DNA from: Qipengyuania vulgaris | Lineage (GTDB): Bacteria > Pseudomonadota > Alphaproteobacteria > Sphingomonadales > Sphingomonadaceae | Length of the DNA stretch: 64,000 bases | NCBI GenBank assembly: GCA_000756795.1 | Contig: CCSI01000001.1 | Span: 248,001-312,000 of the forward strand | Reading direction: 5' to 3' | Part shown: positions 37,149-39,725 of the stretch, one piece after another | Numbering within the stretch: the first letter of the stretch is position 1 | How the letters are laid out: each line of letters starts with the position of its first letter | Program-made: the position numbers and the translations under genes | The notes under the pieces: model-generated | What the model was told of the DNA's origin: nothing | Database searches by the model: none | What the model saw: only the letters and a program-made list of their open reading frames with translations

Positions 37149-37580
37149 ATGAAGAAGCTACTTATTGCCGCTGCCGCTATCGGGCTGGCAGTTCCCACCG
37201 CACCCGCCATGGCCGACGACCACGAGCCAGCCCTGATGGAGGTGGACTGGTACCGCGTAAATCTCATCAAGTGGAAACCCGGCAAGGGTGAGCGCGCGCA
37301 TGAAATCATCGAGATGTATGAAAAGGTCGATGCGGCGCTTGGCCGCAACGATGTCATCGATTTCCACATGGCAACCGGCGAATGGGATTCCATTGTAGCC
37401 ATGCCGATGCGCAACGGAATTGCTGCCATGGGCTGGGCCAATAACCCCGATGGAGACGCCTGGCGCGCCGAATTCGTCAAGCAAATGGGGGGCGAAGAAC
37501 AGGCAAAGGCCGTCTGGCAGGAATTCGAATCGCTGATCCTGCGCGAGCAACGCCACATCGGTCATATCGACCGCGATTGA
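37149..37580 (+). CDS. Exported hypothetical protein upstream of pccA
   Basis: A 143-residue protein with a clear Sec signal (MKKLLIAAAAIGLAVPTAPA, cleavage after AMA). The mature part (VDWYRVNLIKWKPGKGERAH, then HMATGEWDSIVAMPM) has the beta-alpha-beta rhythm of a dimeric alpha-beta barrel, but I cannot name the family. GGGGAGAGG precedes the ATG. It ends 78 nt before pccA; the gap holds a large hairpin. Confidence 0.75.
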   Translation: MKKLLIAAAAIGLAVPTAPAMADDHEPALMEVDWYRVNLIKWKPGKGERAHEIIEMYEKVDAALGRNDVIDFHMATGEWDSIVAMPMRNGIAAMGWANNPDGDAWRAEFVKQMGGEEQAKAVWQEFESLILREQRHIGHIDRD

Positions 37581-37597
37581 GGCTGCCGTCTTGATAC

Positions 37598-37657
37598 CGG
37601 GCCTCCGCTACGGCATGGGCGTGCATACGTTTGTACACCCCGCCTTCCGGAGGCCCG
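37598..37657 (+). promoter_or_regulatory. Terminator-like hairpin that encloses the pccA ribosome-binding site
   Basis: Outer arms CGGGCCTCCG (37598-37607) and CGGAGGCCCG (37648-37657) pair perfectly. Inside, GGC, GGG, GTG and TAC (37612-37628) pair in order with GTA, CAC, CCC and GCC (37633-37644) with two small bulges, giving one long stem. The 3' arm contains GGAGG, the only ribosome site for pccA, and is followed by TTTGTTTT, in which the TTG start codon lies. It thus looks both like an intrinsic terminator and like a translation switch. Confidence 0.7.
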
Positions 37658-37658
37658 T

Positions 37659-39725
37659 TTGTTTTCCAAGATCCTGATCGCCAACCGCGGTGAAATCGCC
37701 TGCCGCGTCATCAAGACCGCGCGCCGCATGGGCATCCAGACGGTTGCCGTCTATTCCGACGCCGACGCCCGCGCGCCCTTCGTGCGCATGGCGGACGAAG
37801 CCGTCCACATCGGTCCGGCACCTGCCGCCGAAAGCTACCTCATTGCGGACAAGATCATCGAGGCCTGCAAGCAGACCGGCGCCGAAGCGGTGCATCCGGG
37901 CTATGGCTTCCTCTCCGAACGCGCGAGCTTCGTGGAAGCGTTGGCCAAGGAAAACATCACCTTCATCGGGCCCCCGCCGAACGCCATCGCCGCTATGGGC
38001 GACAAGATCGAATCGAAGAAGCTGGCACGCGAAGCGGGGGTGAATGTCGTCCCCGGTTTCGTCGGCGAAATCCGCGATACCGAGCATGCGGTCGAGATTT
38101 CGAACGACATTGGCTACCCGGTGATGATGAAGGCCAGCGCCGGCGGCGGCGGCAAAGGCATGCGCCTCGCCTGGAGCGAAAAGGATGTACGCGAAGGCTT
38201 CGAGGCGACGAAGCGCGAAGGCCTCAATTCCTTCGGTGACGACCGCGTCTTCATCGAGAAATTCATCGAGAACCCGCGCCACATCGAGATCCAGATTCTC
38301 GGCGACAAGCACGGCAAGGTGATTTACCTCAACGAGCGCGAATGCTCGATCCAGCGCCGCCACCAGAAGGTGGTCGAGGAGGCGCCTTCGCCCTTCGTCA
38401 CGCCCAAGATGCGCAAGGCAATGGGCGAACAATGCGTCGCGCTTTCGAAAGCCGTCGGCTATCACAGCGCAGGCACGGTGGAACTGATCGTCAGCGGCGC
38501 GGACCCGACGGGCGAGAGCTTCTACTTCCTAGAAATGAACACCCGCCTGCAGGTGGAGCATCCCGTCACCGAAGCCATCACCGGTGTCGACCTCGTCGAG
38601 CAGATGATCCGCGTCGCGGCGGGTGAGAAGCTCGGAATCACGCAGGATGATGTCAAAATCGACGGCTGGGCGATCGAGAACCGCGTCTATGCCGAAGATC
38701 CGTATCGCGGCTTCCTGCCTTCGACGGGCCGCCTCGTGCGCTACGAACCGCCGGTCGAGCCCTGGGCCGATGACGGCGAAGAGAATGGCCGCCGCGGTGT
38801 CGCGGGTATCCGCGTCGACGACGGCGTCTTCGAAGGCGGCGAAGTGTCGATGTTCTACGACCCGATGATCGCCAAGTTGGTGACCTGGGGCGAAACGCGC
38901 GACGAGGCTGCGGACCTGCAGATTGCCGCGCTCGACGCCTTCCGCATCGAGGGATTGGGGCACAATATCGATTTCCTCAGCGCCATCATGCAGCACCCGC
39001 GCTTCCGCTCGGGCGAGCTGACCACCGGCTTCATCGCCGAGGAATATCCCGAGGGCTTCGAAGGCGCTCCGGCAGACGAGCGCCTGCGCGGAGTGCTGGC
39101 AGCGGTTGGCGGCGTGATTGCCACCGCCGATGCCGACCGTGCGCGCCGCGTGGACCAGCAGCTGGGCGGCGAATTCTACGCGCCGGGCGACTGGACCATT
39201 CGGATCGGCGAGCGCGATGAAGGCTCGATTACGCACGAAGTCGTGCTCGGCGAAGACGCGCTGACCGTCGATGGCGAGCAAGTTACTATCGAGATGCAGT
39301 ACACGCCGGGCGAGACCATGGTCGATGTCGCGCTCTACGATAACGACGCGGGCGAAGATGCCGAGCCGCTGGAGCTCTATACCATCCAGCTGAAACCCAC
39401 GCGCACCGGCTATGCCATGACCACGCGCGGCGCGACGCACCAGCTTCGCATCCTGCAGACCCGCATTGCCGATCTCGCATCGCACATGATCGAGAAAACG
39501 CCGCCCGACCTTTCCAAGATGCTCATCTGTCCGATGCCGGGCCTGCTGGTGAAGCTGCATGTGAGAAAGGGCGAGGAGGTCCAGCCGGGCCAGCCGCTCG
39601 CCACGGTCGAGGCGATGAAAATGGAGAACATACTGCGCGCCGAAAAACAGGCGGTTGTGGGCACGGTCAACGCAGCCGAAGGCGATTCGCTGGCGGTCGA
39701 CGAGGTGATTCTCGAGCTCGAGTAA
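37659..39725 (+). CDS. pccA: Propionyl-CoA carboxylase alpha chain (biotin carboxylase plus biotin carrier)
   Basis: A 688-residue biotin enzyme. The biotin carboxylase domain starts at FSKILIANRGEIACRVIKTA, with the ATP loop MKASAGGGGKGMRLAW and EMNTRLQVEHPVTE. The BT linker domain lies at about 460-600. The C-terminal biotin carrier has the biotinylation site K654 in EAMKMEN. Together with PccB it carboxylates propionyl-CoA. The start must be TTG 37659, as the conserved N-terminus begins one codon later. It is 6.8 kb from pccB but in the same direction and locus. Confidence 0.96.
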   Translation: MFSKILIANRGEIACRVIKTARRMGIQTVAVYSDADARAPFVRMADEAVHIGPAPAAESYLIADKIIEACKQTGAEAVHPGYGFLSERASFVEALAKENITFIGPPPNAIAAMGDKIESKKLAREAGVNVVPGFVGEIRDTEHAVEISNDIGYPVMMKASAGGGGKGMRLAWSEKDVREGFEATKREGLNSFGDDRVFIEKFIENPRHIEIQILGDKHGKVIYLNERECSIQRRHQKVVEEAPSPFVTPKMRKAMGEQCVALSKAVGYHSAGTVELIVSGADPTGESFYFLEMNTRLQVEHPVTEAITGVDLVEQMIRVAAGEKLGITQDDVKIDGWAIENRVYAEDPYRGFLPSTGRLVRYEPPVEPWADDGEENGRRGVAGIRVDDGVFEGGEVSMFYDPMIAKLVTWGETRDEAADLQIAALDAFRIEGLGHNIDFLSAIMQHPRFRSGELTTGFIAEEYPEGFEGAPADERLRGVLAAVGGVIATADADRARRVDQQLGGEFYAPGDWTIRIGERDEGSITHEVVLGEDALTVDGEQVTIEMQYTPGETMVDVALYDNDAGEDAEPLELYTIQLKPTRTGYAMTTRGATHQLRILQTRIADLASHMIEKTPPDLSKMLICPMPGLLVKLHVRKGEEVQPGQPLATVEAMKMENILRAEKQAVVGTVNAAEGDSLAVDEVILELE

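Follow-up and report, generated by a model that had tools for sequence, protein, structure and literature searches.

A conserved hairpin at the start of pccA in Qipengyuania vulgaris and its relatives, with a predicted promoter across its 5' arm

The pccA gene of Qipengyuania vulgaris raises the question of what a stable RNA hairpin is doing across the translation start of a metabolic gene. The locus lies in a 64-kb stretch of DNA (positions 248,001–312,000 of its contig, in a genome of 2.86 Mb), which we refer to as the window. An initial annotation, made from the sequence, had described a hairpin with 10-bp outer arms (CGGGCCTCCG and CGGAGGCCCG) followed by the T-tract TTTGTTTT, and had proposed that this one structure can both end transcription and block translation of pccA. 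We asked how far that description holds, in how many relatives the hairpin is found, and which RNA could form it.

The hairpin at the start of pccA

The features of the locus are collected in Table 1. The hairpin and its T-tract are present as described, and the predicted fold of −39.2 kcal/mol stands well apart from the mean of −23.4 kcal/mol for shuffled sequences (z −5.0; none of 200 shuffles was its equal). A value of −39.2 was reached by 43 of 18,266 overlapping 72-nt segments taken from both strands of the 64 kb. The perfect 10-bp outer stem is by itself unremarkable: the window has 18 seed matches, and 20 shuffles averaged 8.1 (range 3–19). A dispersed repeat was considered as the origin of the structure and rejected, as the arm pattern matches this site alone in its genome.

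Table 1. Coordinates of the features at the pccA locus, numbered from the first base of the window
Feature	Position	Strand	Remark
Gene for 143-aa protein	37149–37580	+	No match in Pfam or NCBIfam; directly 5' of hairpin
Predicted −35, TTGATA	37591–37596	+	TTGA lies 17 nt ahead of GGCAT in 37/39 loci
Whole hairpin	37598–37657	+	Fold energy and permutation test; would form only in RNA begun upstream
Outer stem, 5' arm CGGGCCTCCG	37598–37607	+	Within spacer of predicted promoter
Predicted −10, CATGGG	37614–37619	+	Overlaps conserved GGCAT; 17-bp spacer; motif also before purS without hairpin
Predicted transcription start	37625–37627	+	6-bp discriminator assumed; in or at edge of apical loop
Outer stem, 3' arm CGGAGGCCCG	37648–37657	+	Contains ribosome site
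Shine–Dalgarno sequence GGAGG	37649–37653	+	Inside 3' arm; 5 nt 5' of TTG
T-tract TTTGTTTT	37658–37665	+	Terminator-like tail overlapping start codon
pccA, biotin-carrying subunit of propionyl-CoA carboxylase	37659–39725	+	TTG start at 37659–37661

Two further claims of the initial annotation, that the GGAGG of pccA is within the 3' arm and that the N-terminus of the protein fixes TTG as its start codon, were borne out. The ribosome site is paired in the 3' arm of the stable hairpin, as in the I-TevI type of element discussed below. The TTG is the earliest start available after the preceding in-frame stop, and the motif KILIANRGEIA, which fixes the frame at the N-terminus, is present in 55 relatives. 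The inferred product has biotin carboxylase, PCC_BT, and biotinyl domains. Upstream, the hairpin begins 17 nt past the stop codon of a gene for a 143-aa protein, which has an N-terminus resembling a signal peptide (as judged by eye) and conserved Trp, His, and Gly positions. We presume this gene to be the source of read-through transcription into pccA.

What the initial annotation had overlooked is the sequence TTGA-N17-GGCAT in the 5' arm (hereafter the motif), which is best read as a promoter. The evidence for this reading is set out below, after the distribution of the hairpin and the evidence that its pairing is selected.

Distribution among relatives and selection for pairing

We looked for pccA in 60 genomes of the genus and obtained 56 readable upstream regions; one locus without an exact N-terminal match (L022, genome G009) and three genomes without a full match (G006, G039, and G053) were left out. 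The hairpin was found directly 5' of pccA in 19 of the 56 genomes. Among these 19 are L057, which has GGCATT at the motif, and L036, in which the first fold was unexceptional (z −1.0) though motif, arms, and position agree. In L006 and L020 the motif is located at −485 and −480, and a gene for an LprI-like protein lies between the hairpin and pccA. All 21 of the genus genomes that have the 143-aa gene beside the pccA locus have the hairpin, as compared to none of the 35 others, in which we saw no hairpin at −70 to +10 and no motif within 1 kb of pccA. In one genome, G016, homologues of the 143-aa gene are present only elsewhere and not beside pccA.

In other genera, 12 of 20 homologous loci fetched, spread over eight genera, had the hairpin. 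Ten of the 12 hairpins are before pccA; the other two (L146 and L147) precede an esterase gene, and there pccA lies about 1 kb further on. Seven of the 20 loci had neither the motif nor a nearby pccA, and one (L152) was left out of the evaluation. A scan of named genomes yielded 17 loci: ten with flanks that were already represented, six new loci with the hairpin (among them those of Erythrobacter sp. NAP1, L196, and Erythrobacter donghaensis, L200), and one, from a Salinimicrobium bin, with a terminator-like hairpin only. Genome G059 of the genus and Q. xiapuensis (L187) have the same flank. In total we count 39 distinct loci from nine genera of the family. Every one of them folds into a long hairpin, with −25.8 kcal/mol as the least stable value. 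As the 143-aa protein was the means by which we found the family and named loci, co-occurrence with its gene is a matter of construction among them, and it is the genus set alone that tests co-occurrence. The closest group of loci served to build a covariance model (R1), which gave weak matches to L028, L030, and L031 (E 0.01–0.07) and missed L036 and L057; two of the family loci, L139 and L145, were first met as covariance-model matches (L121 and L122). The other family matches of R1, at less than 40 bits and judged by reading the sequence, were set aside; to the extent that this could be judged, none was located 5' of pccA. The names of the esterase, purS, and RecG genes mentioned here were confirmed by Pfam.

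The hairpin stays with the 143-aa gene even when an LprI-like or an esterase gene follows, which speaks for the insulator proposed below. It is equally what would be expected if the hairpin were a plain intrinsic terminator of the 143-aa gene that reaches by chance into the start of pccA, as is the finding that distant homologues of the 143-aa gene located elsewhere (L112, L114–L117, L151, L155, and L156) are also followed by terminator-like hairpins, as judged by eye from their folds. We consider the terminator explanation unlikely on the basis of features of the element to which we return below.

The stems themselves diverge strongly among loci (for example, L141, L138, and L110), yet each pairs. 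When the spacer of each of 22 representatives was folded with its own 3' half, the mean energy was −20.5 kcal/mol, as compared to −16.0 kcal/mol with permuted 3' halves, and none of 100,000 permutations matched the native pairing; for eight very distant representatives the corresponding figure was nine of 100,000. Three control regions (one of coding sequence and two upstream stretches) were not significant (z 1.4, −0.6, and −1.5). Up to five standard pair types occur at single positions of the 5' arm in the 22 representatives. In the closest group none of nine pairs shows change on both sides of the stem, and the 3' half of the same locus is the best partner for only 7 of the 22 spacers (8 of 22 with GGCAT included). 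Because the sequences of the stem diverge while pairing is kept, and because the controls are not significant, we conclude that the hairpin structure is under selection. The structure is conserved and its arms covary, which supports the initial annotation in this respect.

The same divergence bears on the idea that a dimeric repressor or activator binds the inverted repeat as a DNA operator that overlaps the promoter. A long inverted repeat does flank the predicted −10 and start, as would suit such a site. The sequences of the arms, however, change among genomes with pairing kept, a pattern incompatible with a sequence-specific DNA site, and we regard an operator as highly improbable.

A motif in the 5' arm with the spacing of a promoter

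TTGA, exactly 17 nt, and GGCAT follow one another in 37 of the 39 loci, and the next base is A or G in 36 of those. The sets of 32 and 38 elements used below were anchored on the motif (L147, which lacks it, being excluded) and therefore conserve TTGA and GGCAT by construction; the counts to rely on are 21/21 for the genus loci, which were collected without use of the motif, 11/12 for the other family loci, and 5/6 for the new named loci. The 17-nt spacing is constant, whereas GGCAT and the start codon are 34–43 nt apart. Base pairing by itself does not account for the motif, because TTGA has its A unpaired in 18 of the 22 representatives and because the letters of GGCAT are constant while their pairing partners vary. 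Nor does the terminator explanation.

Read as a promoter, the copy of the motif in the window is TTGATA-N17-CATGGG. According to a report on Zymomonas, σA promoters of that organism have the form TTGNNN-17-TANNNN, their discriminator is 6 bp long, and T-7 is not conserved (PMC7566282); a second report states that T-7 is absent from over 80% of the promoters of N. aromaticivorans (PMC8407463). Measured against this Zymomonas pattern, the −35, the spacer, and the A of the −10 fit, and the first base of the −10 is C rather than T. In front of the window's two tRNA genes we read, by eye, TTGCCA-17-TATGTG and TTCACA-16-TATAGG. Against a promoter is the conservation of GGCAT, which goes beyond what is usual for a −10. 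A scan of 30–45 kb with an E. coli-type model found no promoter.

The motif also occurs apart from the hairpin. TTGA-N17-GGCATAGG is located 23–34 nt before purS in seven loci (PF02700 was confirmed for one), and a hairpin of the pccA type was formed in none of the seven when they were folded; an identical or similar string is present in three further genomes (G025, G045, and G052), outside the seven loci folded. The purS loci carry the motif without a hairpin, and hence the motif is separable from the fold. A search of the genus for TTGA-N17-GGCATNGGC gave 51 matches, as compared to 13 for a reversed control pattern; 16 of the 51 are the pccA element, 10 are at purS or purS-like genes, and 25 are elsewhere. 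Also against the promoter reading, a search of 119 genomes of the family for CTTGA-N(12-22)-GGCATAGG revealed, among the matches listed, no excess at a spacing of 17 beyond pccA: three matches are at 17, two of them pccA, and many are at codon-periodic spacings. From the constant spacing, the resemblance to known promoters, and the recurrence at purS, we infer that TTGA-N17-GGCAT is a −35/−10 promoter of pccA that spans the 5' arm of the hairpin.

The motif invites another interpretation, that of a leader regulator on the mRNA of pccA itself (a riboswitch, a small-RNA target, or a protein target) that is opened by, for example, biotin or propionyl-CoA. A conserved structure does hide the ribosome site, and TTGA and GGCAT could serve as a recognition motif. 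However, a search of Rfam with the hairpin gave no match at the gathering score and nothing credible below it, the inner stem and loop vary among loci, and the element tracks the 143-aa gene even where the next gene encodes an LprI-like protein or an esterase. Moreover, the conserved pieces fit the spacing of a promoter and recur at purS without a hairpin. A leader regulator is, in our judgment, improbable. On the same grounds, the Rfam result and the variable inner stem and loop, a known RNA family or riboswitch class was rejected. The initial annotation had matched the hairpin to no riboswitch class, and its suggestion of control by biotin, BirA-type proteins, or a small RNA found no support.

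Several loci depart from the common pattern. In E. donghaensis (L200), GCGAT replaces GGCAT (GCGATAGG in place of GGCATAGG) in the same hairpin; the distance to pccA is about 1.4 kb, and the frame that opens with the TTG after the stem has only 51 codons. In Sphingomicrobium astaxanthinifaciens (L147, which is the same as L201), the hairpin before the esterase gene is without the motif, that is, without a predicted promoter. A look-alike in L059, TTGA-N17-AGCATG, was set aside, as there is no hairpin there. We likewise rejected the idea that the CTTGA stretch pairs with the beginning of the coding sequence: 5 of 38 elements had a perfect 5-nt complement there, with no self-preference (z −0.1). 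Finally, TTGA-N17-GGCATAGGC is conserved before purS (L071, L076, L078, and L088–L091) with changing spacers and is probably the purS promoter.

Which RNA would form the hairpin

Because the predicted promoter spans the 5' arm, transcription of pccA probably begins in the loop, and the resulting RNA would never fold into the hairpin. Position 37626, six bases past the −10, is where the apical loop begins. Of 38 elements, 35 have the predicted start inside the loop, and in all 38 it is not more than 2 nt away; the placement is partly geometric, in that the middle of the hairpin is where a loop is to be expected in part anyway. The dinucleotide CA is found at the predicted start in 13 of the 22 representatives, as compared to 4 of 22 in each of three non-overlapping windows tested. 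In the 32 elements in which the ribosome site was located, it lies in the 3' arm, and its predicted openness averages 0.06 in read-through RNA and 0.28 in the short RNA. The relief is partial, as weak structure persists in the short RNA, and the predicted openness of the start codon is equal in the long and short RNAs at 0.50. In L138 the ribosome site is predicted to be more open in the long RNA than in the short.

We therefore propose, with a probability of roughly 0.6, that the element is an insulator with its promoter in a stem: the predicted promoter of pccA lies across the 5' arm, and the hairpin would act on read-through RNA only. RNA from the predicted promoter would start near 37626 in the loop and lack the 5' arm, leaving its ribosome site freer and without a terminator hairpin. 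Meanwhile, read-through RNA from the 143-aa gene would carry both arms, fold, and bury the ribosome site; at loci with a T-tract after the stem, such as this one, it would also terminate across the start codon. In this way pccA would be expressed mainly from its own promoter rather than from that of its neighbor. The proposal of the initial annotation that one hairpin ends transcription and blocks translation is thus supported in the case of read-through RNA, and probably does not hold for the RNA of pccA itself. A start of transcription within the structure, which that annotation had counted as a refutation, is likely to be the mechanism itself. To the wider statement, that this is a conserved insulator in which a metabolic gene has its promoter built into the 5' arm of the hairpin that silences and terminates read-through, so that the start site alone decides which RNA is translatable, and that it is tied to the 143-aa gene and can shield any gene that comes after it, we would give about an even chance.

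The T-tract bears on both the insulator and the terminator explanation. As in an intrinsic terminator, the stem in the window is rich in G+C and is followed by TTTGTTTT, and a T-tract follows the stem in loci with a TTG start. A TTG start with TTTTCC is found in 13 of the 19 genus loci that have the hairpin immediately 5' of pccA, as compared to none of 37 pccA genes without it there. This suggests that the T-tract was selected even though it entails a weaker start codon; alternatively, the pattern could stem from shared ancestry. A plain terminator would account for this much. Unlike an intrinsic terminator, however, the element has 40 nt between its outer arms (inner stems included) and contains a ribosome site and a start codon; the terminator explanation does not say why the 3' arm of the 32 elements should contain the ribosome site. 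It also meets difficulty with those ATG-start relatives in which the T-tract is missing: the ATG-start loci of group B have none, and L028, L057, and L138 are examples of loci that start with ATG and lack it. The missing T-tract in group B counts against the insulator as well.

The insulator that we favor has partial precedents. In transposons IS10, IS50, and IS200, RNA that enters from outside folds over the ribosome site of the transposase gene, and RNA from the element's own promoter does not. The pccA element differs in that there is no transposase, and the protected gene is a carboxylase gene of the host. The closest described case in the literature searched is I-TevI of phage T4. A stable hairpin over its ribosome site arises only when transcription has begun at promoters upstream; a promoter immediately 5' of the gene yields RNA too short for the hairpin, and the gene is translated from this short RNA. 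Hairpins at ribosome sites are also described for I-TevII, I-TevIII, segB, and mobE of Aeh1 (PMC2988022). The pccA element resembles I-TevI in having its ribosome site in a stable hairpin, and a short RNA is predicted to escape it; it differs in that a phage late promoter provides the timing of I-TevI, whereas a chromosomal metabolic gene is here served by a predicted promoter of the host's housekeeping type. It differs further in the T-tract, which adds probable termination, and in an arrangement that spans nine genera. The literature gave no recognizable report at pccA or of the same chromosomal arrangement; subscription journals were mostly uncovered, which makes this weak evidence of absence.

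If the insulator reading is correct, a bacterial chromosome uses an RNA fold to tie translation to the place where a transcript began, a device familiar from phages and insertion sequences, and the element would be a compact natural part that combines terminator, promoter, and ribosome site. It would also be a clear example of a conserved upstream hairpin that is not a riboswitch, and a warning that a hairpin upstream of a gene may be missing from the mRNA of that gene.

Finally, we note two features of the neighboring genes. A gene for an LprI-like protein (PF07007) is located directly before pccA, without a hairpin, in L004 and L029 and is absent from that position in the group to which the window belongs. 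Distant homologues of the 143-aa gene (L112, L114–L117, and L149–L156) sit elsewhere, and that of L116 has a RecG-type gene nearby.
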